The position numbers were made by a program, and so were the translations under genes. 64,000 nt of DNA from Synechococcus sp. CBW1004 (lineage in GTDB: Bacteria > Cyanobacteriota > Cyanobacteriia > PCC-6307 > Cyanobiaceae). Location of the stretch: contig NZ_CP060397.1 in the NCBI RefSeq assembly GCF_015840715.1, positions 1,694,686 through 1,758,685 of the forward strand, given 5' to 3'. Of the stretch, positions 47,694 through 62,885 are shown piece by piece. The notes under the pieces were generated by a model. It did no database searches. It worked only from the letters and a program-made list of their open reading frames with translations, and was not told the origin of the DNA. The stretch's first letter is position 1. Each line of letters opens with the position of its first letter.

Positions 47694-48571
47694 GAGTTTG
47701 CGGAAAAACCGTCAGAAACGCCGCGTTCCTCCCTCGCGTGATCTGATTACGCGCTGTTCGGGCTGGATTCGTTGATTCAGCGGTTCAGAACGCCAGATTT
47801 CAGGCGTTTTGCCCCGTTGGGGCTTCCTGGAAGCCGCCTCGTTGGCACACCTCTGGGGGGGCAACCACCTGTTCATGCCGCCGCCATCGCCGGTTTGAGC
47901 AGGTTGCCCAGCCGGATCAGGTTGTAGGCGATCACGTGCAGGCCAAACACTGCACCCACCTTTTCGGTGCCGCGCAGCTTGAACTGACGCAGACCGCCCC
48001 ACTGCTTGATCCAGCCAAACACCTTCTCGATGCCGCGGCGGGCATTGATCGACTTGCCGTAGCCCTCATGGCGAGTGGTGCGGCCATCAATGGCGGAACC
48101 ACCAGAGCGAGCAGTGTTCTGAGCCACGTGAGGTGTGACTCCGATGCGGCGCATCTCTGCGACAAAGCCCCTGGTGTCGTAGTTCTTGTCGGCACCGATC
48201 GTTTTCTGGTGGGCACCGGGACGATCTGCCGCCATCACCTTGGCGGCATCCCGCTCTCCGGTGCCCGTCGCTTGCGTGACGCGACAGTCGACGATCAGGG
48301 CATGGCGGTTGTCCATGAGCACATGCCCCCGGTAGCTGGGCAACGCCGGATGGGCCTTGGATTTGCGGCACAGCAGCGCGTCCGGGTCCAACATGCCCCC
48401 AAACGGCACATGAAATTCCTCGATTGAAAGCTGGCCGTTATGGGTTTTGCGGTACATCTGCAGCGTTCAGCAGTTGCAGCAATCGTGGACTGCCCTGTAC
48501 CGGCCCAGTTTATCGGGTCTTGATCGCCGAGACCAGCTGCCCCGCAATGGATTTGGCTTTTTCAGGAGGCC
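47694..48571 (-). mobile_element. IS-B: IS5-type element in tandem with IS-A, internally altered
   Basis: 878 bases between CTAA at 47690-47693 (shared with IS-A) and CTAA at 48572-48575. The ends GAGTTTGCGGAAAAACC and (minus strand) GGCCTCCTGAAAAAGCC are weakly matched inverted repeats. It is too short for the roughly 300-500-residue transposase expected from its parts, so it looks like a deletion derivative. Confidence 0.65.
47873..48457 (-). pseudogene. Shortened IS5-type transposase in IS-B
   Basis: 194 residues. The first 25 (MYRKTHNGQLSIEEFHVPFG) match the extreme N-terminus of a long IS5-type transposase. The sequence then jumps to LDPDALLCRKSKAHPALPSY and RGHVLMDNRHALIVD, part of a DDE core from a different section or subgroup. 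VTQATGTGERDAA, GADKNYDTRGFV and GIEKVFGWIKQWGGLRQF give the second Asp and the Glu. The first catalytic Asp region is missing, so activity is unlikely. Possibly mobilised in trans. Confidence 0.75.
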
Positions 48572-49126: not shown

Positions 49127-50299
49127 TCAGCGGCGCTCCGCCATCCGCTCCCGTAGCCGACCCCTGCGAGCCTGGAGCGTGGCGAGAAGCCCCCGGTCCT
49201 CGCCGGTGAGGGGGTCGTTGAAGGCCGCGGGCGGCAGGCTGGAGCACGCCACCACCCGCAGCCAGTCGAGGGGGGAGGGGCTGAGGGAGGCTCGGCGCAC
49301 CACGTTGTCCAGCCAGTGGCCGGGATGCCAGGCCCCATCAGCGCTCACCCGCGGCGGCCGCTCCTGGGCCCAGCGGGCGCGGGCGATGGCCCGCCGGCAG
49401 TCGGGCCGCCCTGGATCGGTGAAGGCCAGCAGGGCGGAGCAGCCTGTGGCGTCGTAGGCGGCGGCGCAGCTGTGGCGCACGCAGCGCGCCCGTCGCAGGC
49501 GCGGCCCGGTGGCCGGGGGGAGCTGGCGGGCCAGGAGGGCGACGTCCAGCAGGTGGTGGAGTGTCATCCACTGATCCGAGGCGGCGTGCAGGCAGCTGTG
49601 CCGGAAGGCGTGATCCAGCGACAGGGTGGGCACGGCTCTGCCGTTGAGGTTCACCGTCTGGCGGGCCTGCCAGAGGGCCTCAAACGGGGGCAGGGGTGCC
49701 CGCACCGTGTTGATGCCCCAGTGCAGATCCAGGCAGGGACTTCCTGGCCGTTCCAGGCTGAGTTCGTGGCCCGTCCAGCGGGCGTAGCGCCCCCAGAACG
49801 AATCGAGCCGGCGTGGAAACATCCCAGGGGGTCGGTGAAAGCCCAGCCCCTCCAGCAGGGCCACCACGGCGGGCAGATCCTCCGGAGCCACCAGCAGATC
49901 CAGATCCCCCCCACCCCGTCCCCTCGCCACACCGGTGGTCTGCACGGCCAGTGCCGGCCCCTTGAGCAGCAGGGCGCGCAGGCCCGCCTGCTCCAGGGCC
50001 GCCTGCGCCTCCAGGGCCAGGGCGATCAGGGCCAGGGACGCCCGCTGCTGGTGGCGGGCCTCCCGCACCAGCGGGTCCGCCAGGCTCGCCGGCAGGGAGA
50101 GGACGTCCGCATGGCGAGCCAGAGGAATGGCCAGCCGGTGGCGGCGCACCGCCTGCAGGAACCCCGGCGGATGGCCGATCTGCGGTGGGCCACCGGCAGA
50201 GGCACCCTGGGGATCCACCAGCCAGTGCAGGACCTGAAGGAGCAGGGGTCTGGAGGCCACCCAGCCGGCTGGGCGGGCCGCTCCGGCGTCGGTTCCCAT
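49127..50299 (-). CDS. Nucleotidyltransferase-family protein (NTP_transf_5-like)
   Basis: 390 residues from the ATG at 50299 (MGTDAGAARPAGW). The signature is LRALLLKGPALAVQ followed by GGGDLDLLVAPEDLPAVVALL, the pattern of the uncharacterised nucleotidyltransferase family PF14907. Then LGFHRPPG, CLDLHWGIN and LSLDHAFRHSCLHAASDQW. Such genes travel with HprK-related kinases and PqqD-like proteins in exopolysaccharide clusters. The Arg-rich C-terminus may bind nucleic acid or membrane. The acceptor is unknown. It is divergent from the ABC exporter, whose start is 110 bases away. Confidence 0.78.
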   Translation of the reverse strand: MGTDAGAARPAGWVASRPLLLQVLHWLVDPQGASAGGPPQIGHPPGFLQAVRRHRLAIPLARHADVLSLPASLADPLVREARHQQRASLALIALALEAQAALEQAGLRALLLKGPALAVQTTGVARGRGGGDLDLLVAPEDLPAVVALLEGLGFHRPPGMFPRRLDSFWGRYARWTGHELSLERPGSPCLDLHWGINTVRAPLPPFEALWQARQTVNLNGRAVPTLSLDHAFRHSCLHAASDQWMTLHHLLDVALLARQLPPATGPRLRRARCVRHSCAAAYDATGCSALLAFTDPGRPDCRRAIARARWAQERPPRVSADGAWHPGHWLDNVVRRASLSPSPLDWLRVVACSSLPPAAFNDPLTGEDRGLLATLQARRGRLRERMAERR

Positions 50300-50408
50300 C
50301 GCGGGGCGGTCTGCCGCAAGGCCCCTTCTTACCCTTGGTGCCACTGCTGCCCACTTGATCAGACCAGTGGCGACGCTGCCCCGGGATCCCGCCCTCCCTG
50401 CTCGCCCC

Positions 50409-52160
50409 ATGCCGCGCCCTGCCTTCCTCCCTGCCATTGTCACCCGTCTCCGCAATCTCTCGCTCCTAGGGCAGCTGGCGCGGGAGGCGGGCTGGCGGCA
50501 TGTGTTGCGGCTCATTCTGTACACCTTCCTGAGCAGCCTGGTGGAGATCAGCGGCCTGGGTCTGGGGGTGTCGCTCCTGCTGCAGAGCGGCTCCTCCCCT
50601 GCCGCCCGGTTCCCGTTCCATCTCGAGCTCCCGCTCCCCCAGGCCCTGTTGACCCTCCTGGCACTGATGCTGCTGCGGGGCACCCTGCAGGCCCTGATCA
50701 CCATCGGGCAGGAGGACCTGCGGTGTTCCTTCGCCGATCAGCTGCGCCAGGGACTGCTGAGCCAGGTGCTCCATGCCCCTTCCCTCAACCTTCAGCAGAT
50801 GGGTAGAGGGGATCTGATCGGGCTCCTGATCGCCGACATCTCCAGCAGCGTGCTGGCCCTGGAGCAGGGCACCCGGGTCCTCCAGGCTCTCCTCTCGCTG
50901 CTGTTGCTTGCGGTCGGCGTGCTGGCGGTGGGTCGGGGGGCTGCCGCGCCCCTGCTGCTGGCGTTGGTGGCCACGGGCGTGGCCGCCCTGCTCCAGCGGT
51001 CTGGCAGCTGGAAGCTCGGGCGCCTGCGCACCCGGATCAATGCTGCCCTGCAGCGCACGGTCGGGGATGGCCTGCACGGAGTCAAGGCGGTGCGTGCCGC
51101 CGGCGGAGAAACCTGGTTGCTGCGTCGCTTCTCCCAGGAAGCCCTCCGCTACCGCCAGGTGCTGTTCCAGATCGTGCGGCGCCAGGCCACGTTCAATGCC
51201 CTCCGCGACACCCTCGTGGTGCTGGTGGTGGGGGTATGGCTGATTTGGGGTCGGGGGGACCTGCCGGCCTCGGCGGTGGCCACCACCCTGCTGTTCGCCT
51301 ATCGCAGTGGCACCGTTCTCAGCGCCGCCATCGGTGCCCAGCGTCATTGCCTGGGAGCCCTTCCCGGCTATGCCACCCTCTGTGAGCGGCGTTCCAGACT
51401 CACGCCACCGCCCGTGCCGTCGCCGTCGCGCACCACCTCCCCCGAGCGGCTCGGTTTGCTGAGGGATCCCGCCGTCTGGCAGGGGTTGTGCTGGACCGGG
51501 GCCGATGGGATGGCTGCCCCCCCCGGGAATTCCCCCACCCTGCATCTCCGACCGGGGGCCCTGATGGTGGTGGTGGGGCCCTCCGGCAGCGGCAAGACCA
51601 CGCTCCTCGACCGGTTCTGCGGCCTGCTGGGGGAGGAGCGGAGTGCCTGGCAGCTCCAGACCCGGCAGGGGGATGTCCTGCTCGCCGGGCCGGCGGGAGC
51701 CGGCCAGCTGCGGCAGGTGCTGGCCTATGCGCCCCAGGTGGCCGTGCTCTTCGAGGCCAGCCTCCGCAACAACCTCACCCTCGATCAGCACCAGGGAAGC
51801 GGGATCATCGAAGCCTGGATGGAGCGCCTGGGCCTGGCCCACCTGCTGGAACGGAGCGGGGGCCTGGACGGCACCCTCCCCCTCATGTTGGATCACTTCT
51901 CCGGCGGCGAGATCCATCGCCTCGGCCTGTTGCGGGCCTGGCTGCGGGATCGGCCCGTGGAGGTGCTGGATGAGCCCACGGCCTACCTCGATGCTGAAGC
52001 CTCGGAACGGGTCAGCACCATTCTCAAGGAGCGTGCCCGGCAGAGGCTGGTGCTGGTGAGCAGCCACGACCCCGCTCTGATCGCCATGGCCGATGGAGTG
52101 CTCCGCCTCACTGCGGCCGAGCGCCAGGAGGCGGAACGCCAGCATCAGGTGGGAGGATGA
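50409..52160 (+). CDS. ABC transporter, fused membrane and ATPase domains
   Basis: 583 residues from the ATG at 50409 (MPRPAFLPAIVTRL); an ATG at 50355 is possible. The first 320 residues hold six membrane segments of the exporter type (LRLILYTFLSSLVEISGLGL, LLTLLALMLLRGTLQALI and others). The nucleotide-binding domain has VVVGPSGSGKTTLL near residue 390, AYAPQVAVLFEASLRNNLTL, a signature reading HFSGGEIHRLGLLRAWL near 497, and VEVLDEPTAYLDAEA near 517. No N-terminal peptidase domain is present. Likely exports a lipid-linked sugar or a peptide. It overlaps the next gene. Confidence 0.88.
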   Translation: MPRPAFLPAIVTRLRNLSLLGQLAREAGWRHVLRLILYTFLSSLVEISGLGLGVSLLLQSGSSPAARFPFHLELPLPQALLTLLALMLLRGTLQALITIGQEDLRCSFADQLRQGLLSQVLHAPSLNLQQMGRGDLIGLLIADISSSVLALEQGTRVLQALLSLLLLAVGVLAVGRGAAAPLLLALVATGVAALLQRSGSWKLGRLRTRINAALQRTVGDGLHGVKAVRAAGGETWLLRRFSQEALRYRQVLFQIVRRQATFNALRDTLVVLVVGVWLIWGRGDLPASAVATTLLFAYRSGTVLSAAIGAQRHCLGALPGYATLCERRSRLTPPPVPSPSRTTSPERLGLLRDPAVWQGLCWTGADGMAAPPGNSPTLHLRPGALMVVVGPSGSGKTTLLDRFCGLLGEERSAWQLQTRQGDVLLAGPAGAGQLRQVLAYAPQVAVLFEASLRNNLTLDQHQGSGIIEAWMERLGLAHLLERSGGLDGTLPLMLDHFSGGEIHRLGLLRAWLRDRPVEVLDEPTAYLDAEASERVSTILKERARQRLVLVSSHDPALIAMADGVLRLTAAERQEAERQHQVGG

Positions 52161-53403
52161 CCCCCTGAATCCCCGTACCAGCTCGGGGCCGTCTCCTCCA
52201 TTGCCCACTTCAGCCAACGGCCCCTTCCCCAGACCATGGCTACGGCAGGCGCCGCTGGACCTGTTGGCCGGCCTTCTTCCCGACCAGGATCCAACCCTGT
52301 TTCTTCTCGCCTGTCTGGCACCGGCTCCCAGGGCGCTGGAGGCTTGGTCCACCTGGCGGGCCCGCCATGGCCCCGCGGAGGGGATGGGGGGCGCCCAGCG
52401 CAGCCTGCGCAGCCTGTCCGCGGTTTTGGCCTGCTCCCTGCTGGAGGCCGGCGCCAGTCTGGATCGGCACGATGCCACCTGGTTGCGGGCGGCCCAGCTG
52501 CACGAGCAGCGGCGCACGGAACGGTATCAGGAGATCGCCGCTGCTGTTCTCGCCTCCCTCTCGGCCGCGGGGCTCCCTTTTCTGCTGGCCCGGGGGGCGG
52601 CCGTGGCGGAGGGGGTGCTGCCGAAGCCCTGGCTTCGCCACTGCCATGATCTCGACCTGCTGGTGCCGGAGTCCCATCTCGACAGGGCATCCGAAGTCCT
52701 CGTCCAGTCGGGATTAAGGGAAGAAGCCTCGGCTGATGCGGGGCGCGCCTTCCTTCACAGGCGACTCCTTCCGGTGCGGCTCCACCCAAAGCCCCTGCCT
52801 TCACCCTTTTTTGGGCCTTTGCTGGAGGATCTGCAGGTCCGCGCACGTCAGGCCACGATCCTTGGCACCTCCCTGCTGCTGCCCTCTGCGGATGATCTCT
52901 TGCTGCATGTGTGCTGCCATGCCGCCTGTCGCGGCGGGCGCACGTCTCTGCGCTGGGTGAGCGATGCCCACGCGATCGTGGTTCAGAGCGAGGAGATCGA
53001 CTGGTCGCGTCTGCGCACCACCGCGGCGGACCATGGCCTTTCGGCCCAGCTGGCGGTGACGCTGGGCTATCTCGCCCATGACATCGGCACCCCCATCCCG
53101 TCCACGCTTCTGGAGGCCCTGGCCGCGGACGCTTCCCGGGCGGACGGGCTTGAGCGGGAGCTGCTCATTCACGCCGCCCGCCTCGGCGAAGGGGGCCATT
53201 TCGGGACGCTCTGGCAGGCCGTGGGCGCCCGCTCCAGGATCAGCCTGGCCCGCTGGTTGCTCGTTCCAGATGGCGCGTATCTGAAGCGCCTGGAGGCGTC
53301 TCCCTCACCATCTGGATCCCAGTTGTTATTGCGCCACTGGCACAGCCGGCTCACCGCGGCGCCATCGGCCCTCGCTCGGCTCGCTTTCCAGGGCTCACCA
53401 TGA
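52093..53403 (+). CDS. Second nucleotidyltransferase-family protein (NTP_transf_5-like)
   Basis: 436 residues if the ATG at 52093 is used. That start lies inside the ABC gene and adds low-complexity residues, and a TTG near 52203 is an alternative. Core: LPFLLARGAAVAEGVLP, then HCHDLDLLVPESHLDRASEVL, LRWVSDAHAIV and LLLHVCCHAAC. The DLDLLV motif matches the other family member at 49127-50299, but the LLKG block reads LLARG. Its TGA overlaps the ATG of the glycosyltransferase. Confidence 0.72.
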   Translation: MECSASLRPSARRRNASIRWEDDPLNPRTSSGPSPPLPTSANGPFPRPWLRQAPLDLLAGLLPDQDPTLFLLACLAPAPRALEAWSTWRARHGPAEGMGGAQRSLRSLSAVLACSLLEAGASLDRHDATWLRAAQLHEQRRTERYQEIAAAVLASLSAAGLPFLLARGAAVAEGVLPKPWLRHCHDLDLLVPESHLDRASEVLVQSGLREEASADAGRAFLHRRLLPVRLHPKPLPSPFFGPLLEDLQVRARQATILGTSLLLPSADDLLLHVCCHAACRGGRTSLRWVSDAHAIVVQSEEIDWSRLRTTAADHGLSAQLAVTLGYLAHDIGTPIPSTLLEALAADASRADGLERELLIHAARLGEGGHFGTLWQAVGARSRISLARWLLVPDGAYLKRLEASPSPSGSQLLLRHWHSRLTAAPSALARLAFQGSP

Positions 53404-54506
53404 AAGTGCTGTACTGGACCCAGCGCTTTTGGCCCCATATCGGTGGCGTTGAAGTGCACGCCTCTCGCTTCCTGCCGGAGATGGTGAGGCGCGGCCATGA
53501 GTTTCGGGTGATCACCTCGCCGGGTGGGCGCGACCTTCCCCCGTTTCAGGAGGTGGAAGGCATCCCAGTGCATCGCTTTCGTTTCGAGGAAGCGTTCCAG
53601 AAGAAGGACCCGGGCTTGATGGCCCACCTGCGGCGGGAGGTGGGAGCCCTGAAACAAAGCTTTCAGCCCGATCTGGTGCACCTGCACCTCACGGATCCCT
53701 CGGTGATCTTTCACCTGATGACCCGCCATCTCCATCCCTGCCCCACCCTGCTCTCGTTGCGGGTGAGCCTGGAGGGAGACCTGCAGCGGCCCGATTCTCT
53801 GATGGTCAGATCCCTCACCGCCGCCGACTGGATCACAGGCAACACGGTGAGCGTGCTGGGCACCGTGCACCAGCAGCTGCCGGACACCCTGGCCCGATCC
53901 TCCGTGATCCTGAATGCGCTGGATCCACCGGCCTCCGCGCCCCCCCCACTCCCCTGGGATCCACCTGTGCTGTTGCTGCTGGGCCGCCTCGTGCCCGAGA
54001 AGGGCTTTGATGTGGCTCTACGGGCTCTGCCCGCCATCGTGCCGCACCATCCCGGGTTGCAGGTCGTCGTTGCTGGCGATGGCCCTTCCCGTCCCGAGCT
54101 CCAGGCCATCGCCCAGGAGCTCGGGCTGGGGGATCGGGTGCGGTTCCTGGGATGGGTGGATCCCCAGGCCGTGCCGGGGTTGATCAACACCGCCACCCTT
54201 GTGGTGGTGCCCTCCCGCTGGAAGGAAGCCTTCGGCATTGTTGCCCTGCAAGCGGCCCAGCAGGCCCGCCCGGTGGTGGCTTCCCGGGTGGGGGGCCTGC
54301 CTGAGGTGGTGTTGCACGACGAAACCGGGCTGCTGGTGGAGCGGGAGGACCCCGAGGCCCTCGCCAGGGCCGTGTTGCGGCTGCTGGCGGATCCGGAGCT
54401 GACCCGTCGCCTCGGTGAGGAAGGCCGGCGTCGTGCGGCTGAGCAGTTCAGCTGGACGGCCCACCTTGACGACTTTTGTAAACTGTACGGCCAATTGGCG
54501 GGGTAA
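53400..54506 (+). CDS. Glycosyltransferase family 4
   Basis: 368 residues. MKVLYWTQRFWPHIGGVEVHA is the GT4 acceptor loop. The donor domain has LLLLGRLVPEKGFDVALRAL, VVAGDGPSRPELQAI, VRFLGWVD and KEAFGIVALQAAQQARPVVASRVGGLPEVV with the E-x7-E-like block (EAFGIVALQ). The ATG overlaps the previous TGA by four bases. Sugar specificity unknown. Confidence 0.9.
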   Translation: MKVLYWTQRFWPHIGGVEVHASRFLPEMVRRGHEFRVITSPGGRDLPPFQEVEGIPVHRFRFEEAFQKKDPGLMAHLRREVGALKQSFQPDLVHLHLTDPSVIFHLMTRHLHPCPTLLSLRVSLEGDLQRPDSLMVRSLTAADWITGNTVSVLGTVHQQLPDTLARSSVILNALDPPASAPPPLPWDPPVLLLLGRLVPEKGFDVALRALPAIVPHHPGLQVVVAGDGPSRPELQAIAQELGLGDRVRFLGWVDPQAVPGLINTATLVVVPSRWKEAFGIVALQAAQQARPVVASRVGGLPEVVLHDETGLLVEREDPEALARAVLRLLADPELTRRLGEEGRRRAAEQFSWTAHLDDFCKLYGQLAG

Positions 54507-54511
54507 TACCT

Positions 54512-54976
54512 GTGGATTCGTCTCACTGCTACGAAGTTGCAACGGATTTGGTGGCGGCCCAGGTGATGGATGGAGAAGTAGTCGTGATCAATCTGGCCAC
54601 AGGCTGTTATTACACGAGTAACCAGGCGGCAGGAGAGATCTGGCCCCTGCTCGAGCAGTGTCAAACCATGGACGCATTGCTGTGCCATCTCTGCAATGTT
54701 TATGATGTGAGCAGGGAAAAAGCAGAGACGGATCTGCGAGGCCTTCTCGACCTCCTCGATGCTGAGGGAATCATCCGAGCCGCCACAACGGAGGCGGAGA
54801 GCCCCCAGCCCGAATCTCCTCCGGTGGCCGAGAAGCGTCCCTACGAGCCTCCGGCCTTTGAGGTGTTCCGCGACATGGAACAGCTGCTGGCCCTTGATCC
54901 GCCCATGCCCGATGCTGGCGAGATCCCCTGGGAGCTGAGCGACGACGACCCTCTCCCCGCCCCGCATGCCACCTGA
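54512..54976 (+). CDS. PqqD-like protein with a leader-like C-terminal tail
   Basis: 154 residues from a GTG five bases after the glycosyltransferase stop. Residues 1-92 form a PqqD/RRE winged-helix: VAAQVMDGEVVVINLATGCY, NQAAGEIWPLLEQC, and KAETDLRGLLDLLDAEGII. After a Pro/Glu linker comes KRPYEPPAFEVFRDMEQLL and ALDPPMPD (about 108-135), a Y-x-x-P-x-F...D-M-x-x-LL motif. RRE domains bind leader peptides of RiPPs, and a similar tail occurs on PqqD-like proteins of HprK-related kinase clusters (TIGR-type HPr-rel-A system, from memory). It ends overlapping the GT2 gene. Confidence 0.8.
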   Translation: MDSSHCYEVATDLVAAQVMDGEVVVINLATGCYYTSNQAAGEIWPLLEQCQTMDALLCHLCNVYDVSREKAETDLRGLLDLLDAEGIIRAATTEAESPQPESPPVAEKRPYEPPAFEVFRDMEQLLALDPPMPDAGEIPWELSDDDPLPAPHAT

Positions 54977-55793
54977 GCACCAGCTGGTCAGCTGTGTTGT
55001 TCCCACCTTCAACGCGGCCCGTTACCTGCCCCAGGCCCTGGCCAGCATCCTCGATCAGACCCACGGGGAGCTAGAGGTGGTCGTGGTGGATGACGGCTCG
55101 GAAGATGACACCCTGGCCATTGCAGCTGCCGCCGGCAGCAGGGTCCGGGTTGTCCAGCAGACCAGGCTCGGCCCCGCGGCGACCCGCAACCGGGGTGTGC
55201 AGGAGGCCCGGGGCGCCTTCCTTGCCTTCCTCGATCCGGATGATCTCTGGCAGTCCGACAAGCTGGAGCTCCAGTTGCGGTGTTTTGAGGCGGATCCCGC
55301 CCTCGACCTCTGTGTCAGCCATGCCCGACTGATCTGGGAGCCAGAGGCGGCCGAACAGGCCCAGCGCTTGCAGCACCTGCCGCGGGCGTCCGAGCCCGTG
55401 CCAGGGTTTGCCACCACCACCCTGCTCGCCCGCCGCCAGGTCTTCGAGACCGTGGGCCTGTTTGATCCGGATCTCTGGTTCGCCGATGCGGTGGACTGGT
55501 TTTTGCGGGCGGAGGCCGCTGGCCTGAAACGGCTGCTGCTTCCGGAGGCCCTCACCCTTCACCGGATGCATGGGCGCAATCTCAGCCAGCGGCGGGAGCA
55601 GGACAGCCGCCAGGAGTTTCTGCGGATCGTCAAACGCTGGGCGGATCGGCGGCGCACCCTGGGGCCCCCCTCATCAGCCGAGGCCGGTCTCCCGGAGGAA
55701 GCGGCCGGCAACCGCTGGCCAGAGGAAGTGCCGCCTCACCCGCTCCCGGCCCGCCTCCCCCAGCCGCAGGCGCAGGGCCCCATCTCGCAATAG
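54966..55793 (+). CDS. Glycosyltransferase family 2
   Basis: 275 residues with a GT-A fold. LVSCVVPTFNAARYLPQAL, VVVVDDGSEDDTL, GPAATRNRGVQEARGAFLAFLDPDDLW gives the DxD-like metal site, then GLFDPDLWFADAVDWFLRA. The last 40 residues (after about 236, Pro/Glu/Arg-rich) are coded where the oppositely oriented GT4 gene ends. They look like an accidental extension after loss of an earlier stop. Confidence 0.87.
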   Translation: MPPEHQLVSCVVPTFNAARYLPQALASILDQTHGELEVVVVDDGSEDDTLAIAAAAGSRVRVVQQTRLGPAATRNRGVQEARGAFLAFLDPDDLWQSDKLELQLRCFEADPALDLCVSHARLIWEPEAAEQAQRLQHLPRASEPVPGFATTTLLARRQVFETVGLFDPDLWFADAVDWFLRAEAAGLKRLLLPEALTLHRMHGRNLSQRREQDSRQEFLRIVKRWADRRRTLGPPSSAEAGLPEEAAGNRWPEEVPPHPLPARLPQPQAQGPISQ

Positions 55794-56846
55794 TCGGTCC
55801 AGGGCCGCCAGGGTCTCCCGCGGGTCGGAGCTGTCCACCCGAAGGCCGGTGACGCCATCGACGACTGCATCGGCCGTTCCCCCTACCCGACCTGCCACAC
55901 AGGGCCGGGCGGCGACCGCCGCCTCCAGGAAGACGATCCCGAAGCCCTCCAACGGGCGGCCGGGCACCAGCCGGCTGGGCATCACGTACACCTCGCAGAG
56001 GTCGTAAAGGGCCTGCTTGCAGAGCTCGTCCACCCGTCCGAGGAAGGTCACCAGCGGAGCTACTCCCAGGCTGCGGGCGAGGGATTCCAGAGCCTCCCGT
56101 TCCGGACCCTCTCCCGCCACCAGATAGCGCAGGCCTGGAAAGGCGCGGGCCAGATCAGGCAGGCACCGGATCACCAGGTCGATTCCCTTGCTGCGTTCCA
56201 GCCGCGCCACGGTGAGCAGCACCCGTCCCCCGTCGAGCTGGAGGTCGGCCTTCAGGGCCGCCACCCAGGGACGGAGATTCTCTGGGACGGGCCGGTCCGG
56301 CACCCCGGGGTTCAGCACCCGGATGTCGAGAGTTTCGCCGTAGCGCATTCGCAGCCGGGTCGCCGTGTCCCGACTGTTGGCGAGGAGGAAGCGTGCGGCC
56401 CGCACATCGCCCTGTCGCCAGGGGTCTACGCTGGCATACATCTCAGCGTCCGTGAGCTCCCCATCGTGGGCAAAGATGGCGTAGGGAATGGCGGATTTCT
56501 GCAGCGCCTGGCACCAGTGATGGGCCATGACGCTCCAGACGCCGATAAAGACCAGGGCATCGGCTCCCGCCGCCTTCAGATGGGCCAGGGTGGCTGGCAC
56601 AGCCTCCCCCCGCATGCGCAACAGTCGCTGCGAGGTGGTCAGGCCTGGAGCCCCCACGGCCTCCAGGATCTCCAGTCGGTAGCGATGGGGCCTGGGTGCC
56701 GTGCCCGCCGGCACAGTGGAGAGCACCGTCGCTGGGAGGGATGTGGCCAGCTCGTCCCAGAGTCCATGCAGGAAGCAGGCGATTCCACCACTCATGGGGG
56801 GAAAATCGGTCGTCAGCAGGATGGCCTGGGGGGAGGTGTCGCTCAT
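55674..56846 (-). CDS. Glycosyltransferase family 4
   Basis: 390 residues. ILLTTDFPPMSGGIACFLHGL, AIFAHDGELTDAEMY, LLTVARLERSKGIDLVIRCL, YLVAGEGPEREALESL and PLEGFGIVFLEAAVAARPCVAGRVGGTADAV give a complete GT-B enzyme, resembling the PimB/GT4 mannosyltransferase group. Its stop lies inside the end of the facing GT2 gene. The ATG overlaps the upstream GT2 stop by four bases (56843-56846). Confidence 0.9.
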   Translation of the reverse strand: MSDTSPQAILLTTDFPPMSGGIACFLHGLWDELATSLPATVLSTVPAGTAPRPHRYRLEILEAVGAPGLTTSQRLLRMRGEAVPATLAHLKAAGADALVFIGVWSVMAHHWCQALQKSAIPYAIFAHDGELTDAEMYASVDPWRQGDVRAARFLLANSRDTATRLRMRYGETLDIRVLNPGVPDRPVPENLRPWVAALKADLQLDGGRVLLTVARLERSKGIDLVIRCLPDLARAFPGLRYLVAGEGPEREALESLARSLGVAPLVTFLGRVDELCKQALYDLCEVYVMPSRLVPGRPLEGFGIVFLEAAVAARPCVAGRVGGTADAVVDGVTGLRVDSSDPRETLAALDRLLRDGALRLRLGEAGRERVRRHFLWPAVAGRFLRETGLG

Positions 56847-57625
56847 ATCAAGGGCTCGAGGGGCACCCCATCCACCCGGATGATGTCCCGGTAGCGATGC
56901 AACACCGACTTCATCGCTCGCACCCGCTCGGCTACCGCCCGGGCAGGATCGGCACGGGACAAGCCCTGAGGATGGTCGAGATACAACCCCAGTGTTTCCT
57001 CCAGGTGCAGCATCGGCGCCCGCTCAGCCAGACGCAGCCAGAACGCATAGTCTCCTGTGATGGCATAGGTTTCATCGAAGCCTCCGGCCCAGGCGTGCAC
57101 CGAGCGGCGCCACATCGGATGGGGCCCGCAGCAGCACCCGGCCAGAAGCACCCGTGGCTGGTAGGTGGGCTGGGCGAGCCTGCGGCCGCGGCTGGAGTTG
57201 TGCGCAAACGTTTCGCCGGGGCGGGTGGTGACCAACGAATCTCCATAGACGAGGCAAACCTCGGGATGGGCATCGAGGGCAGCCGCCATCACCGCCAGCG
57301 CATCCTCGCGCAACCGATCATCGCTGTTGAGATTGCAGAGGTATTGCCCCTGGCTCACCAGGATACCCGCATTCCAGGCGGCATACAGCCCTGGCCGGGG
57401 GGAGGGCACGCCGCGGATCCGGGGGTCGGCACGGTATGGAGCTGTCGCCTCCCAGTCGTTCCCGCCGGGACCGTGTATGACCAGGATCTCCATGGATTGG
57501 AGGGTCTGGGCCAGCAGTGACTCCAAACAACCGTGAAGGAGGTCTTCCCGGTTGCGGCTGGCCACCAGCACACTCACGGTGATGCCGGCGTCCGAGCCCG
57601 CCTCGATCCCCAAGGAGCTCCCCAA
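56843..57625 (-). CDS. Glycosyltransferase family 2
   Basis: 260 residues. ITVSVLVASRNREDLLHGCLESLLAQ, ILVIHGPGGNDWEA, LYAAWNAGILVSQGQYLCNLNSDDRLREDAL with NSDD as the metal site, and YAITGDYAFWLRLAERAP. Start MGSSLGIEAG. It overlaps the downstream GT4 gene, so both are one transcript. Acceptor unknown. Confidence 0.88.
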   Translation of the reverse strand: MGSSLGIEAGSDAGITVSVLVASRNREDLLHGCLESLLAQTLQSMEILVIHGPGGNDWEATAPYRADPRIRGVPSPRPGLYAAWNAGILVSQGQYLCNLNSDDRLREDALAVMAAALDAHPEVCLVYGDSLVTTRPGETFAHNSSRGRRLAQPTYQPRVLLAGCCCGPHPMWRRSVHAWAGGFDETYAITGDYAFWLRLAERAPMLHLEETLGLYLDHPQGLSRADPARAVAERVRAMKSVLHRYRDIIRVDGVPLEPLI

Positions 57626-57691
57626 ACGTCTGCGACCATTTTATGACCAGGCTGATGGGCCCAGCCCCAGGTCGGTCAGGGTCCGAACCTT

Positions 57692-58717
57692 GTGAAACCC
57701 CCCGTCGTTCTCTTCCTCTTCAACCGTCCGGAGTGCACCCGCCAGGTGTTTGCGGCGATCCGCCAGGTGCGGCCGCGCCAGCTCCTTCTTGTGGCTGACG
57801 GCCCGCGGCCCACCCACTGCGAGGATCCCCTGCTCTGTGAGCAGGCCCGCGCCATCGTCAGTGCGCCGGACTGGCCCTGCGAGGTGCTGACGGATTTCGC
57901 CAGCACGAATCTCGGCTGTGGCCAGCGCATGGTGAGCGGCCTCGACTGGGTGTTCGCGCAGGTGGAGGAAGCAATCCTCCTGGAGGACGACTGCCTGCCG
58001 GATCTCTCCTTCTTTGCCTACTGCGAAGCGCTGCTGCACCACTACCGTGAGGATCCACGGGTGATGCACATCGGTGGGCACAACCGACTGATCGCGTGGA
58101 TGCCCGACGCCAGCAGCTACCACGCAACCTTTCAATACGGCAGTGTCTGGGGGTGGGCCACCTGGAGGACGGCCTGGCAATGCTTTCGCCGGGATGCGCC
58201 CAACTGGCGCAGACTGGCGCATCAGCTCACAACCACGCAGGTGGGGTGGAATGGGGACACACAGGCTGAATTCCTGCACCCCTTTCAGACCTTTTCCATG
58301 GAAAAACTGGCTGATGATTGGTGCATCATCTGGACCCTCTCCAAGATGCTGAAAGGTGGCCTCTCCCTTTTCCCGGCAAGGAATCTGATCAGCAATATCG
58401 GTTTCGGGCCGCAGGCAACGCACACCTCCATGAGCCATGCCCTGCTGTTTCAGAACACGCCCCGCTTTTCCCTGGAGTTTCCACTGCATCATCCCAGCCA
58501 CCTTCAGCTGGATGCGCACTATGAAGCGCAGCATCTGCGCTGGATGCAATGCCGGCCATCCCCGGATCTGCTCCAACCCCTCCTGGATCATCTGCTGGCG
58601 CAGAACCGCTGTGTGCATGCGCTGGTGCTGATCGAGCAGGTCCTGCGCAGCTCGCTGCCAGCCCCGGAGTATGAGCAGCACAAGGCCGCGGTGCTCCGTC
58701 AGTTGCGGGGGGGCTGA
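57692..58717 (+). CDS. HlpA-like glycosyltransferase (nucleotide-sugar GT-A type)
   Basis: 341 residues. VVLFLFNRPECTRQVFAAIR, LLLVADGPRPTHCEDPLLC, NLGCGQRMVSGLDWVF, AILLEDDCLPDLSFFAYCEALL with an EDDC metal site, and SVWGWATWRTAW belong to a family often labelled hemolytic protein HlpA-like. It is better seen as a GT-A glycosyltransferase. Divergent from the GT2 gene before it, 66 bases apart, and convergent with the next. Confidence 0.82.
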   Translation: MKPPVVLFLFNRPECTRQVFAAIRQVRPRQLLLVADGPRPTHCEDPLLCEQARAIVSAPDWPCEVLTDFASTNLGCGQRMVSGLDWVFAQVEEAILLEDDCLPDLSFFAYCEALLHHYREDPRVMHIGGHNRLIAWMPDASSYHATFQYGSVWGWATWRTAWQCFRRDAPNWRRLAHQLTTTQVGWNGDTQAEFLHPFQTFSMEKLADDWCIIWTLSKMLKGGLSLFPARNLISNIGFGPQATHTSMSHALLFQNTPRFSLEFPLHHPSHLQLDAHYEAQHLRWMQCRPSPDLLQPLLDHLLAQNRCVHALVLIEQVLRSSLPAPEYEQHKAAVLRQLRGG

Positions 58718-58726
58718 GGTCGCGGC

Positions 58727-59851
58727 TCATCCGGAGTGTCTGGAGGCCAGGCGCGCGTAAAGGGTGGCGTAGGCCCCCACCTGCCGATCCAGAGCGAAGA
58801 GCTCCCGGGCCCGCTGCTGCGCCGCATCTCCAAAGTTGCGGCATCGCGGCAGATCCTGCAGCAGCTCAAGGGCGGCGGCGGCCATTTCTCCGGCGTCGCC
58901 TGGGGTCACCAGTAGGCCGGTGACCCCGTGCTCCACCACCTCCACCAGCCCGCCGGTCCTGCTGGCCACCACAGGACGACGCATCCAGGCGGCCTCCAGG
59001 GCCGTCAGGCCGAATCCCTCCGACAGGGAGCTCACGAGCAGCAGGGAGGACGCTTCCATGAGCTCCAGGCAACGTTCGCTGCGCTTCCACCCGAGGAAGC
59101 GGACCGAGCGGGACACCCCCAGGTGCTCTGCCAGCTGCTCCAGCCGGGGGCGATCGTGACCATCGCCGGCGATGGTGAACCGGGCCTCCGGCAGCGCCGC
59201 CCGGATCTCCGCGAAGGCCCGCAGGGCGATGTCGACCCCCTTGCCCGCCACCAGTCGGGCCACACAGAGGAGCTCCGGTGGGCTGATGCTGACGGGAGCG
59301 GCCTGGCGTGGCGGCGGTTCCATGCCATTGGGGATCACCAGGCTGCGACCTGCCGCTGCGGGCAACACCTCGAGCAGATCGGCCTGAACAGCCCGGGAAC
59401 AGGCCACGAGCGCATCGGCCCGGCGCAGGGCGTGGTCAAACACCGTTCCCGGCCGCAAGGGCCGGCACAGGCTCGGCTCGAGCTCGCCATGCAGCGTCAC
59501 CACAGTGGGGACAGGAGCTGCGCTGCGGCTCTGCCAATGGAAGAGATCGATTGGCGACACCATGCACAGGTGCACCACATCCGGCCGGAAGGATCGCTTC
59601 TGATCGGCCAGCCAGTGCAGGCCTGCTGCCATGGCGGTGGGTGTGGGCCGGGCCACCGCTTCCCAGAAGGGGAACCGGCGCACCTGCACGCCATGGCGGA
59701 GGTCCTGATCCGGCAGATCCACGGTGTATTGGGTGGTGACCACCAGCACCTCATGCCCCAGCCCGAGGAGTCCCCGGGCCAGGCGATCGATCACCGTGGG
59801 GCCACCGGATCCATAGGGGGGGAAGTGGGGGCTGAAGAGCAGCAGCCTCAT
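58727..59851 (-). CDS. Glycosyltransferase family 4
   Basis: 374 residues. LLLFSPHFPPYGSGGPTVIDRLARGL, VVHLCMVSPIDLFHW, TVVTLHGELEPSL, LVIPNGMEP, LLCVARLVAGKGVDIALRAF, FTIAGDGHDRPRL, VRFLGWKRSERC and SEGFGLTALEAAWMRRPVVASRTGGLVEVV. Complete GT-B fold with the EGFGLTALE block. It starts four bases inside the kinase gene stop, so the two are translated together. Confidence 0.9.
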   Translation of the reverse strand: MRLLLFSPHFPPYGSGGPTVIDRLARGLLGLGHEVLVVTTQYTVDLPDQDLRHGVQVRRFPFWEAVARPTPTAMAAGLHWLADQKRSFRPDVVHLCMVSPIDLFHWQSRSAAPVPTVVTLHGELEPSLCRPLRPGTVFDHALRRADALVACSRAVQADLLEVLPAAAGRSLVIPNGMEPPPRQAAPVSISPPELLCVARLVAGKGVDIALRAFAEIRAALPEARFTIAGDGHDRPRLEQLAEHLGVSRSVRFLGWKRSERCLELMEASSLLLVSSLSEGFGLTALEAAWMRRPVVASRTGGLVEVVEHGVTGLLVTPGDAGEMAAAALELLQDLPRCRNFGDAAQQRARELFALDRQVGAYATLYARLASRHSG

Positions 59852-60927
59852 GGCCGCTGATCGTTCCCGGGCAGGGCCTGCGCCACCAGCTGGGGCAGTT
59901 GGGTGGGGGGCGCGGTGCCCTCAAGCCAATGCACAGGCACGGCCCGCAGCAGATCGCTGAGCCGTCCGATGTCGCCGCTGTCCCAGGTGGGGTAAAGGGG
60001 CAGGCAGTTGGGCAGCATGCGGGTCATGGCCTCCACCCGGCGGGCCGGCACAAGTTTTGCCTCGGCCAGGGCAGGATCCCGGCGCGGCAGAACCACGGCG
60101 TGGATGGGGGAGGAGGCCAGAATCCGATCGGGGAAGAGGTCGGAGGCCATCAGGATCGCCTTGTTCAGCGCATCGGTTTCCAGCCGGTGGGCCTGGGGCC
60201 GGTGCTGGGGGAAGTGCTGCATCATGTCGACGCTGGCGAGGATCGAGCGATAGAGGCGGTGACCGACGAACACGCCCGGTGCCACGGTCTCCAGACCGAT
60301 CTTGTCGTCGGAGAGAAATCCGAAGCCTGCATCCAGGCAGGCCAGCGCCAGGGTGGATTTGCCGGCACCAGCGGGTCCACCGATCAGCAGACCCCTCCCA
60401 TCCTTGCTGACGAGCCCCGCATGCAACACCGGCAGGCCGATGCGGCGCAGCCAGAACCTCAGGGGCCATTCCAGCGGGCGCGCCCGCTCGTGGAGATGGA
60501 AGCGGGAGCGATCCAGCACGCAGCCCACCAGGGCAGGTTGCTCCAGGTCGAGGACGTTGAGCCAGCCCTTGGCGATGTGACAGACGTAACGGCCACTCAC
60601 GGAGGTGCCCGTGACCACGTCCTGCCGCAGTTGCTGCTCATTGAGACGATGGAAGAGCCCAAGGCGCGGATCGATGCCCGTGTCCGGTGTCTCATCCCAC
60701 AGGCAGATCTCAAGGGCCGGGGGGCCATCGCCAGCGTAGGGCTCGAAGGCGGTGCGGAAGATCCGGGCCAGTTCGGCGCCGAGGAAACGACCGACGACGC
60801 GTCGTCCGGCGATCGAGAAGTCGTAGGTGGTGAGCTTGGCCGGGTAGGCCTCGCTGAGCTGGGCAAAGGTCTGCTGCAGACGCTGATGCACCTCAGCGCA
60901 GGACAGCCTTGTCTGAAGCAGCGTCAT
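59848..60927 (-). CDS. HprK-related P-loop kinase
   Basis: 359 residues from the ATG at 60927 (MTLLQTRLSCAEVHQRL). The N-terminal 160 residues are an all-beta and helical region of the HprK-related kinase type. The kinase core has VLHAGLVSKDGRGLLIGG, the P-loop GPAGAGKSTLALACLDAGF at about 184-202, and FLSDDKIGLE at 204-213, corresponding to the acidic Walker B of HPr kinase. No HPr or CcpA homologue is near. In other bacteria HprK-rel-A kinases sit with PqqD-like and nucleotidyltransferase proteins, as here. The substrate is unknown. It could instead be a serine kinase acting on a lipid or peptide. Confidence 0.78.
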   Translation of the reverse strand: MTLLQTRLSCAEVHQRLQQTFAQLSEAYPAKLTTYDFSIAGRRVVGRFLGAELARIFRTAFEPYAGDGPPALEICLWDETPDTGIDPRLGLFHRLNEQQLRQDVVTGTSVSGRYVCHIAKGWLNVLDLEQPALVGCVLDRSRFHLHERARPLEWPLRFWLRRIGLPVLHAGLVSKDGRGLLIGGPAGAGKSTLALACLDAGFGFLSDDKIGLETVAPGVFVGHRLYRSILASVDMMQHFPQHRPQAHRLETDALNKAILMASDLFPDRILASSPIHAVVLPRRDPALAEAKLVPARRVEAMTRMLPNCLPLYPTWDSGDIGRLSDLLRAVPVHWLEGTAPPTQLPQLVAQALPGNDQRP

Positions 60928-61002: not shown

Positions 61003-61923
61003 ATGGTGCGATCCGGTCGTGGGGCGATCTATATGGCCTTGGGCCCGACCTTCATCGAGGAAGCCAGGATTTCCGCAGAGAGTGTCAGGCGTTTCATGCC
61101 GGACCTGAGACTCGTTCTCTTCACGGACCATCCGCCATTGGAGCGAGGTGTTTTTGATGAAGTCATTCCCCTCGAAGAGGTTCATCCGAAGGTCCATGTC
61201 AACAAGTTGATCGCCATGCTTCGTTCGCCGTTTGAGCAGACGATCCTCCTGGACACCGACACCTTTGTCTGCGCCCCCTTTGGCGAATTGTTCGAGTTGC
61301 TCGATCATTTCGATGTCGCCATGTCCCACGACCGCCGCTATATCGACTGGTGTCCCAAAAATGTGGGCGTGCCCGTGGCCTTTCGTGAGTTCAATCAGGG
61401 AGTGATTGTTTACCGACAATCGGCCAGTCTCATCCGGACTGCGGAGGAATCTCTCCTATGGGTGAACAGGCTGGCTGATATGAATGGATGGGTGCCGGAC
61501 GATCAGCCACCGCTTCGTATTGCCCTCTATGAGAGTGACCTGCGCATCGCTACGCTGACTAGCGAGTACAACTGTCGCTTCCATACCTTTGGCCAGGTCA
61601 ACGGAGAGGTTGTCATCCTGCATGGCCGCATCCCGGGACAACCCTTCACGGAAAGGAATCTGTCGCGAATTGCAGCCTGCATCAACAAAAAGACAATCCC
61701 GCGGGTTTATGTCGCTGGCAGGGTCTACGCGCTTGAGCGTCCGTCTATCTGGGGGAAGAGCTATTTCCGATCCTCACATATTGTCACCATGTTCAGGCCA
61801 ACGCTTGGCTTCTGGCGAGCGACGTTACGGCATGGCCGGGAGTTCCTTCGCCGAAGGGGTCTCAGAGACGCTTCCGGCTATCTGTTTTGCCGGATGCGGG
61901 GCGAGCGCCAGCCCTCTCAATAG
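61003..61923 (+). CDS. Putative glycosyltransferase (GT-A, nucleotide-diphospho-sugar transferase type)
   Basis: 306 residues. AIYMALGPTFIEEARISAES, LVLFTDHPPLE, KVHVNKLIAML, TILLDTDTFVCAPFGELFELL with DTDT as the metal-binding DxD, and VPVAFREFNQGVIVYRQS. The C-terminal 60 residues are basic and not conserved-looking. Base use is noticeably less GC-rich than its neighbours, a sign of separate acquisition. The last seven bases overlap the end of the facing chimeric gene. Confidence 0.78.
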   Translation: MVRSGRGAIYMALGPTFIEEARISAESVRRFMPDLRLVLFTDHPPLERGVFDEVIPLEEVHPKVHVNKLIAMLRSPFEQTILLDTDTFVCAPFGELFELLDHFDVAMSHDRRYIDWCPKNVGVPVAFREFNQGVIVYRQSASLIRTAEESLLWVNRLADMNGWVPDDQPPLRIALYESDLRIATLTSEYNCRFHTFGQVNGEVVILHGRIPGQPFTERNLSRIAACINKKTIPRVYVAGRVYALERPSIWGKSYFRSSHIVTMFRPTLGFWRATLRHGREFLRRRGLRDASGYLFCRMRGERQPSQ

Positions 61924-62885
61924 CTGTAATCGGCCTCGAACAGGCTGGTGTCGTCGGAAGGCTCGCTGCCCGGGATGTAAGCGCCCCGGCTGGCGGCGCC
62001 GTTGGCCCGGACCCGGGCCAGCAAGGCCGCCTGGCCCGCCCCCCGATCGCTGCCTCCCCAGTGCTGGAGGCAGGAGTGCTGCAACGCCCGGCCGAAGGAG
62101 AAGCCCAGGTGCCAGGGGGCAAAGCCCTGGGCCGCCGCCTCGTTGATGGCGTTGAGGCAGCGGCTTGCGTCCTCCTCGCTGAGGCCGCCGGAGAGAAACA
62201 GGATCGCCGGCACCGCTGCCGGCACCGTGCGGTTCAAGGTGCGCACGGTGAACTCCCCCACCTCCTCCAGGCTGGGCCGCACCGGGCAGGCAGCGCCGGC
62301 AGTGGTCATGGAGGGCTTGAGCAGACTGCCTTCCAGAAACACCCCGAAACCCTCGGCCGGTCCTGATGGCGGAGGCGGCGGATCGACCTGCCCATCAATT
62401 CGCTCCAGTGAGGCATGGGACGCCCAGGCCTGCAGCAGGGTGCCATCCACCGAGAAGTGCTCATCGCTGAGCAGCGGCCTGACCTCCGGCGCACCCATCA
62501 ACTTCTCCAGGAAGCGCCCCATCACCTCCTCGTTGAGCAGCCGCTCGCGGTTCTTGGTGAACGTTGTCGGATGCCAGATCGGATCATCCGGGCTGAGGCC
62601 CACGAACCAGCGAAAGAGCAGGTTGTAGTGGAGCTGCTCCAGCAGCAACCGCTCCGATCGGATCCCGTAGAACGCCTGCAGCAACGAGGCCAGAAGCAGC
62701 TGCTCGGGCGGCACCGATGGCCGGCCTTCTGAGGCGTACAGCGCGCAGAAGGTGGGATTGAGTCGATCAAGGGCCTGATCGGCCAGCTTGCGGATCCGCC
62801 GCAGCGGATGACTGGCCGGAATCCGATCCTCGACCGAGACGTAGGAGAACAGCGAGCCGGTGCGCTCCTGTCGACCTCGCATCAC
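61917..62885 (-). pseudogene. Transposase / class I fructose-bisphosphate aldolase chimera
   Basis: A 322-codon open frame made of two unrelated halves. Residues 1-179 are the N-terminal part of an IS5-type transposase (LFSYVSVEDRIPASHPLRRI, RPSVPPEQLLLASLLQAFYG, HFSVDGTLLQAWASHAS with the first DDE Asp). Residues from about 181 are the C-terminus of class I fructose-bisphosphate aldolase: VFLEGSLLKPSMTT with the Schiff-base Lys, TVRTLNRTVPAAVPAILFLSGG, SEEDASRCLNAINEAA, LGFSFGRALQHSCLQ and the native terminal DYSY. The aldolase lacks its first 200 or so residues and the transposase lacks its last two catalytic acids, so neither half should work alone. The join is in frame near 62,345. Confidence 0.85.

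Follow-up and report, generated by a model that had tools for sequence, protein, structure and literature searches.

A conserved module of a tailed PqqD-like protein, an HprK-like kinase, a PF14907 protein and a glycosyltransferase, with a divergent copy in Synechococcus sp. CBW1004

The closest published relatives of the gene cluster described here are the linear polyphosphorylated peptide (LPP) systems, beside the pseudomycoidin-type lasso peptides. The relevant passages of the 2026 report on LPP (PMC13381572) place these systems mostly in Bacillota, first met inside capsule loci, and define their core as a RiPP recognition element (RRE; RiPP, ribosomally synthesized and post-translationally modified peptide), an HprK-like kinase, a nucleoside triphosphate (NTP) transferase, an MsbA-like transporter and a signal peptidase. 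The same passages state that the kinase LppK phosphorylates a Ser of the precursor peptide delivered by the RRE, that precursor leaders are of the type YxxPxVLxHQxIxFETxxS, and that most discrete lasso-type RREs recognise [Y/W]xxPx[L/V/I/A/F/Y]. For pseudomycoidin, the passages concerned describe phosphorylation of a Ser by PsmK, after which PsmN adds one or two hexoses there (PMC9266682). An update of RRE-Finder reports, in the passage that bears on this work, that 21% of PF05402 proteins exceed the length of a discrete RRE without further Pfam annotation (PMC12710340). The cluster analysed here lies in a stretch of 64,000 nucleotides, called the window throughout, from the complete 3.67-Mb genome of Synechococcus sp. 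CBW1004 (NZ_CP060397.1, positions 1,694,686 to 1,758,685, forward strand). At 49.1–61.9 kb of the window it holds two PF14907 proteins, an ATP-binding cassette (ABC) exporter, an RRE protein (Q), a kinase (K) and glycosyltransferases. It is a divergent copy of a conserved four-protein module of Q, K, a PF14907 protein (N) and a family 2 glycosyltransferase (G, or GT2). This gene set is apparently both widespread and undescribed: no description of the tail motif of Q or of the operon was found in the open-licence literature (titles, starts of abstracts and matching passages; subscription papers and preprints lie outside this scope).

Q (54512–54976, + strand) is a lasso-type RRE protein of 154 residues with the PqqD fold. 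It matches PF05402 at 51.6 bits (gathering threshold 23.4), its best NCBIfam matches are the lasso PqqD models, and the Q family profile matches TbiB1 with E = 1.3e-19. Profiles built from loci of other genomes, with the window excluded, match the window's Q at 102.7 bits, K at 179.2 bits and both N proteins at 88.2 and 137.8 bits. Relatives were collected by scanning one genome per species with a seven-row query and the pattern [LMI]DP[IV]H[ED]V[DK][PEA], which gave 263 pattern matches and 203 relatives, and the best 80 loci were kept. Alignment of relatives revealed that Q extends past the RRE through a variable linker into a recognition motif, [FYW]xxPx[L], followed by YxDMxxLLxLDPIHEVDxxGWP. 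The full tail consensus, [FY]xxPxLxxYxDMxxLLxLDPIHEVDxxGWP, is near-invariant, and its first part fits the published recognition pattern of lasso-type RREs. The conservation of DPIHEVD is partly built in, because the search pattern contained it. Outside the pattern, the tail retains P in 76, L in 67, D in 73 and M in 72 of 78 sequences, and the closing GWP retains G in 76, W in 77 and P in 76. Per column, the RRE averages 2.05 bits of information, the linker 0.98 and the tail 2.91 once the pattern columns are set aside. Six Q rows (L060, L088, L111, L117, L119 and L120) were thinned out of the 78-row alignment, and L095|3132, which carries no motif, was dropped from the tail counts. The Q family is a concrete member of the dark set of longer PF05402 proteins mentioned above. 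The window's tail segment (54842–54946, + strand; YEPPAFEVFRDMEQLLALDPPMPDAGEIPWELSDD), placed by alignments and a six-frame profile match, has a YxxPxF recognition motif and then a diverged LDPIHEVDxxGWP. This divergent form, YEPPAFEVFRDMEQLLALDPPMPDAGEIPW, is matched at 21.5 bits by a profile built without it (E = 2.6e-4, in that small search). It reads DPPM for DPIH and IPW for GWP, so that DP and the W are kept and the canonical DPIH and GWP are lacking.

A canonical Q from locus L037 was modelled with AlphaFold from 78 rows and reached a predicted local distance difference test score (pLDDT) of 87.6. The RRE of this model superposes on leader-bound TbiB1 (5v1v) with Z 13.1 over 88 residues at 2.3 Å, and on TfuB1 (6jx3) with Z 11.7. 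The assignment as an RRE thus combines the score of the window's Q above the PF05402 cut-off with the lasso B1-like fold of its relative's model. Residues 101–120 of the modelled tail have pLDDT 93/87, with a strand at 111–114 and a helix at 117–123, and residues 121–140 have pLDDT 62–69. This strand-then-helix layout is one that we take to resemble RRE-bound leaders. Read together, pLDDT and DSSP suggest that the tail is predicted to lie in the groove where its RRE would bind a leader, because a DSSP strand has to pair with another strand, most plausibly in the RRE sheet. A stand-alone tail peptide was also considered. In the six frames of the 80 kept loci, the best of the 203 relatives, the sole match outside long frames scored 9 bits (E = 2.2), and the candidate was rejected on this search. 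In 386 genomes of the phylum Cyanobacteriota, each tail sits in an open frame of 150–228 or 661 codons.

K (59848–60924, − strand) is a P-loop kinase of 358 residues of the type of HPr kinase (HprK) and phosphoenolpyruvate (PEP) carboxykinase (PEPCK), as judged from its K profile score and catalytic residues. Its sole Pfam match, PF07475, is sub-threshold (26.6 bits; gathering threshold 33.3). It keeps the invariant His, the P-loop and the DD pair (H168, K189, S190, D206 and D207), and has Leu in place of a Lys shared by 53 of 58 aligned kinases and Pro in place of a His shared by 55 of the 58. Q and kinase sequences were aligned separately; a joint alignment had placed the kinase N-termini onto the RRE. 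A fused paralogue from the same genome (L034) was modelled from 58 rows with pLDDT 86.8, comprising a second RRE-like unit and the kinase. Its residues 262–623 match ATP-dependent PEP carboxykinase, a metabolic enzyme, with Z 17.1 over about 310 residues, at 12% identity and a root-mean-square deviation of 5.2 Å; HPr kinase comes behind it, with Z 13.7 over 129 residues. Sequence comparison also links the kinase profile to HPr kinases (best E 3e-7). Membership of the PEPCK/HprK superfamily, with its shared P-loop, DD and conserved His, is indicated by the residues of the window's K and by the two-domain fold in the model of the fused paralogue, and from its family the window's K is predicted to have a PEPCK-like N-terminal domain. 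At about residues 160–260 of the fused paralogue, the second RRE-like unit is followed by a strand and helix of its own (243–258), like a degenerate second tail.

The preliminary description of this DNA had proposed that these parts recur together in other bacteria, and the 80 loci bear this out. Their genes were called and clustered with our own scripts, and single calls may be wrong. Q was called in 78 of the 80, GT2 in 70, the kinase in 69, PF14907 in 57, and a family 4 glycosyltransferase (GT4) and an ABC protein in 28 each; the ABC cluster includes some non-exporter ATPases, and an exporter-sized member of at least 450 residues is present in 21 loci. In L042 and L107, Q is absent from the gene calls and present in the six frames. 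Six-frame profile searches found the kinase in 71 and PF14907 in 60 loci; where at least 7 kb was available on both sides, the counts were 40 and 35 of 43. The nearest kinase lies on the same strand as Q in 70 of 71 loci, with a gap below 300 bp in 51 of 71. Of the 78 loci in which Q was called, 49 have the kinase directly after it on the strand, and in 33 a GT2 comes next or is joined to the kinase. A common order, on one strand, is Q-K-GT2(-GT2)(-ABC)-PF14907. Natural fusions join RRE, tail, second RRE and kinase in four loci (L034, from this genome, L039, L040 and L110) and the kinase with GT2 in eight. The fusion of an RRE to the kinase suggests that the kinase acts on an RRE-bound peptide. 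No kinase is visible near Q in four Chloroflexi-type loci (L044, L045, L047 and L116). Two of them, L044 and L045, have a large ABC protein (621 and 624 residues) immediately after Q, and for this reason the tail may also serve export.

Among the accessory genes, of which 99 of 137 are covered by the Pfam tally, the commonest families are short-chain dehydrogenases/reductases (7), two sulfotransferase families (6 and 4), SMP-30/gluconolactonase (5), epimerases (4) and methyltransferases (4); three genes match radical S-adenosylmethionine (SAM) enzymes. According to the titles of their records, the loci represent Actinobacteria, Chloroflexi, Deltaproteobacteria, Acidobacteria, Bacteroidetes/Ignavibacteria, Gemmatimonadetes, Aminicenantes, Beta- and Alphaproteobacteria, Nitrospirae, Bipolaricaulota, Cyanobacteria, Chlamydiae, Bacillota, Lentisphaerae/Opitutaceae, Latescibacterota and Planctomycetes; most are metagenome-assembled genomes (MAGs), and some taxon labels may be wrong. 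One signature tail and one kinase family thus mark the module in well over ten phyla. One MAG labelled Bifidobacterium breve (L094) has a Q tail very like an Acidimicrobiia one (L043), and is perhaps a mislabelled or contaminated bin.

The association was also counted in the 386 Cyanobacteriota-phylum genomes. The tail profile, whose 25 rows include the window tail and other tails of the phylum and so helped their own scores, matches 28 genomes at 31 places in 17 genera. The kinase profile matches 49 of the genomes, and its 31 matches of at least 68.6 bits fall in exactly the same 28 genomes as the tail. The remaining 29 kinase matches score at most 56.3 bits, and 28 of them start at model position 141 or later, covering the kinase domain alone. 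Twenty matches of one family of small-genome relatives (f31) also start late, at 98–151, so the N-terminal domain does not separate strong from weak kinases in that family. A strong kinase lies within 5 kb of the tail in 30 of 31 cases, the exception being on another contig. PF14907 is present in all 28 tail genomes, compared with 39 of the other 358, and lies within 10 kb of 29 of the 31 tails. Three f31 loci (L122–L124) have the order PF14907-kinase-Q-GT2, a kinase with a weak C-terminal RRE match (13.9–24.4 bits) and the tail ADPIHEVK-E-GWTPE. Single-sequence searches with the window proteins in a sample of 200 genomes from the same order as the window found relatives of Q in 10 and of the kinase in 9, which makes the module uncommon there.

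The cluster was compared with each of the related systems described so far. With HPr-rel-A it shares an HprK-like kinase and a PqqD-like protein, and the preliminary description had placed it there. This label did not hold: K scores 38.2 bits on TIGR04352 (cut-off 200; four relatives 20.7–37.4) and Q scores 21.2 on TIGR04353 (cut-off 35), both far below, and membership was rejected. Among the members scanned, neither the kinase nor the PqqD protein passed any NCBIfam cut-off. HPr itself (PF00381) has no match in the whole genome (the control matched in 7 of 14 genomes), so that K is no HPr kinase of the usual sort, and asparagine-synthase-like cyclases (PF00733) are confined to 1.996 and 2.330 Mb, beyond the window; on both points the earlier reading, that neither was in view, was correct. 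The genome has no match to the lasso B2 protease (PF13471; control in 2 of 14), and with no cyclase nearby a lasso peptide cluster was rejected. In the same way, an LPP cluster as defined was rejected on the lack of any archaeal-type signal peptidase in the genome (TIGR02228; control in 8 of 14). The LPP gene set is otherwise recognisable: the cluster has a discrete RRE, an HprK-like kinase, an NTP transferase, an MsbA-like ABC protein, which in the window is exporter-like, a polysaccharide setting and the YxxP motif. In contrast to LPP, the motif and a near-invariant peptide here belong to the RRE protein itself and a GT2 forms part of the core; a further possible difference is the PEPCK-like N-terminal domain predicted for the kinase family. 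Paeninodin and pseudomycoidin (PadeK, PsmK, PsmN) likewise combine an HprK-like kinase and a nucleotidyltransferase-type protein with an RRE; unlike them, the cluster has GT2 in its core and no B2, nearby cyclase or recognised lasso precursor. SynChlorMet (TIGR04248 ScmD, TIGR04249 ScmC) shares the PqqD-like and HprK-like pair, with weak matches below the cut-offs (the window's K on ScmC, 23.4 against 125; the Q relative of L052 on ScmD, 24.8 against 100), and differs in that no radical SAM protein was found among the 12 window proteins scanned. A separate precursor was sought at 44–64 kb by scanning open reading frames (ORFs) of 25–150 residues for the general motif [YW]xxPx[LIVAFM]. None of the 14 matches was convincing by eye; eight lie inside called genes and six outside the cluster. 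The gene clusters of the 80 loci contain no conserved small-ORF family.

Kinase and PqqD searches located two further copies of the module in the genome. At 3.25 Mb (L034) it is a single protein of 623 residues with the order RRE-tail-second RRE-kinase, and at 2.48 Mb (L035) the PqqD and kinase genes are adjacent; both copies carry DP[IV]H...GWP tails. In the window, the frames of Q, K and N are intact and the genes are scattered over both strands. The general finding rests on the family rather than on the window copy, because the latter is divergent. At about 0.12 Mb (L036 8688–12068; C1 ~122.7–126.1 kb), a PqqD-like protein of 90 residues, an HprK-like kinase and a radical SAM–PF14907 fusion of 737 residues stand in a row. 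This kinase is nearer to TIGR04352 (59.0 bits, below 200), its PqqD protein has no tail, and no NCBIfam cut-off was reached among the matches listed; the locus is of a different kind and looks like another orphan RiPP-type locus. The genome has six PF14907 regions, each no more than 10 kb from one of its four HprK-like kinase matches.

The module with its operons and fusions, the conserved tail and the kept kinase motifs are what we observe. The constancy of the Q tail, K, PF14907 and GT2, set beside variable glycosyltransferases, sulfotransferases, methyltransferases, epimerases and radical SAM enzymes, suggests a fixed handle and an operon-specific glycan. Our tentatively favoured interpretation, every chemical step of which we infer, is that Q carries in its tail the handle or acceptor on which a phosphate-linked glycan specific to each operon is built; we likewise infer that the tail, rather than another molecule, would be the modified species. 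Q would hold its own tail as other RREs hold a leader peptide and so present a fixed handle or acceptor, K would supply phosphate, and N might add the first sugar, by analogy with PsmN. GT2 and GT4 enzymes, together with operon-specific sulfo-, methyl- and epimerase enzymes, would then build the variable glycan, which the ABC exporter may move out. The preliminary description had suggested a peptide- or phosphate-tagged glycan; this is compatible with the anatomy and, by analogy, with the tested paeninodin, pseudomycoidin and LPP enzymes. Such a module would extend the known RRE designs by one with a ligand of its own and link RiPP enzymology to surface glycans, and its tail would provide a defined peptide on which to test the puzzling pair of HprK-like kinase and PF14907.

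Several observations weigh against this interpretation. A Tyr at −9 or a Ser/Thr at −8 is present in 86 of 93 tails and neither in 7, the window copy among them, and the tail lacks an invariant Ser, Thr or Tyr, which leaves either an unusual linkage or a tail that is a docking strap with a sugar or lipid acceptor. The four RRE-kinase fusions all have the tail within the chain and not at a free end, and in the fused paralogue's model, where only four rows cover the tail part, it is poorly predicted (blocks at pLDDT 57, 30 and 40). Q occurs without kinase or PF14907 in 3 of the 43 loci with full flanks. No peptidase was recognised among the clusters common to at least three loci or among the accessory Pfam families (the 25 most frequent of 96), which speaks against Q being an ordinary RiPP precursor from which a leader is cleaved. 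The boundary separating strong from weak kinases (68.6 versus 56.3 bits) was set after the data had been seen, and the 28 tail genomes are not independent, because 20 of them belong to family f31. The window's Q also lacks the His of DPIH and, with Lys and His lost from its kinase as well, the window copy may work differently. A bolder form of the favoured interpretation, in which recogniser and acceptor in one protein define a widespread RiPP-like glycoconjugate class with a near-invariant handle and a host-specific phosphate-linked glycan, seems rather improbable to us. In this form the PEPCK-like kinase may activate an Asp or His, because Asp-Pro, His and Trp come close to invariance and no hydroxyl residue is invariant; we know of no described system with a peptide-sugar linkage made through an activated Asp or His.

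A somewhat less favoured yet still quite conceivable explanation makes the tail a strap for docking or autoregulation, lying in the RRE groove and tethering K, GT2 and PF14907 into one complex, with K as a sugar or lipid kinase and a sugar- or lipid-linked glycan as the acceptor. This would account for the missing invariant hydroxyl and the lack of a common peptidase, it suits the glycan-gene setting, and the modelled kinase fold resembles PEP carboxykinase (Z 17.1), which acts on small molecules, more than it resembles HprK (Z 13.7). Against it, DPIHEVDxxGWP beyond the recognition motif would hardly be needed to fill a groove, and related kinases of known substrate act on RRE-delivered peptides, as stated in passages of PMC13381572 and PMC9266682. 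The enzymes could instead belong to a conventional LPP- or lasso-like RiPP whose separate precursor went unrecognised, with Q merely its RRE. The set of RRE, kinase, PF14907-type protein and ABC transporter is that of LPP clusters, which passages of PMC13381572 also place in polysaccharide loci, and the top NCBIfam matches of Q are lasso models; we nevertheless consider this explanation unlikely, as the genome has neither an archaeal-type signal peptidase nor B2, the 14 short-ORF matches were unconvincing and no small-ORF family is conserved, and 30 of 31 family kinases have a tail-bearing RRE no more than 5 kb away.

The window copy itself might be a decaying or repurposed remnant, with the active copies at 3.25 Mb (fused) and 2.48 Mb. 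The losses of His from the tail and of Lys and His from the kinase, the genes on both strands with transposase genes on either side, and the DP[IV]H tails of the other two copies all speak for this; the intact Q, K and N frames, scoring 88–179 bits on profiles from other genomes, and the kept His, P-loop and DD of the kinase speak against it, and on balance we regard it as not very likely. That the genes are chance neighbours in a polysaccharide island is most improbable. Such islands are generally known to shuffle genes, but recurrent co-location in the 80 loci, in this genome and in Cyanobacteriota, together with the natural fusions, refutes chance for Q, K and PF14907, though not for each single glycosyltransferase.

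The remaining genes of the cluster agree with the preliminary description in most respects: Pfam and profile matches support the kinase, the PqqD-like protein, two PF14907 proteins, the ABC exporter and glycosyltransferases. NT1 (49127–50299, − strand) matches PF14907 (NTP_transf_5) at 118.6 bits against a gathering threshold of 31.2 and the N profile at 88.2 bits; its true start is uncertain, a longer open frame reaching to 50704. The second PF14907 protein, NT2 (52093–53403, + strand; start uncertain, 52093 to 52264), scores 113.3 bits on PF14907 and 137.8 on the N profile. Between them, the ABC exporter (50409–52160, + strand; start uncertain), of permease-ATPase type, matches PF00005 at 62.5 bits and PF00664 below threshold, and no peptidase domain is among its Pfam matches. 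Its top NCBIfam match is CydC/CydD-like and below cut-off, and the MsbA model gives 82.6 bits against a cut-off of 602. Seven glycosyltransferases had been proposed, of which five pass Pfam cut-offs: a GT4 at 53400–54506 (+ strand; PF00534, 148 bits), a GT2 at 54966–55793 (+ strand; PF00535, 109 bits), a GT4 at 55674–56846 (− strand; PF00534, 119.5 bits), a GT2 at 56843–57625 (− strand; PF00535, 63.3 bits) and a GT4 at 58727–59851 (− strand; PF00534, 128.4 bits). The GT2 at 54966–55793 is likely the cassette's own, judging by its relatives elsewhere, which follow or are fused to the kinase, and it is overlapped by 120 bp by the 3' end of the convergent GT4 at 55674–56846. The other two stand less firmly. 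P9 (57692–58717, + strand) has no Pfam family and is probably a glycosyltransferase, with relatives in 9 of the 80 loci and in L125 (270 bits). P12 (61003–61923, + strand), a putative glycosyltransferase beyond the 49127–60927 span first described, has a sub-threshold match to Mannosyl_trans3 (19.5 bits; gathering threshold 22) and a relative in L125 at 334.5 bits. Close relatives of P9 and P12 both lie beside a canonical Q-K-GT2 locus in that other cyanobacterium. A PHROGs search of five window proteins gave no match. Transposase genes or fragments flank the cluster at 46517–47500 (+ strand), 47873–48457 (− strand) and 63064–63945 (− strand), two of them DDE_Tnp_1 and one IS66. At 61917–62882 (− strand), one frame joins the N-terminus of a DUF772 transposase (81 bits) to the C-terminus of a class-I fructose-bisphosphate aldolase (model positions 207–349, 153.7 bits), a chimera that is probably the leftover of an insertion element.

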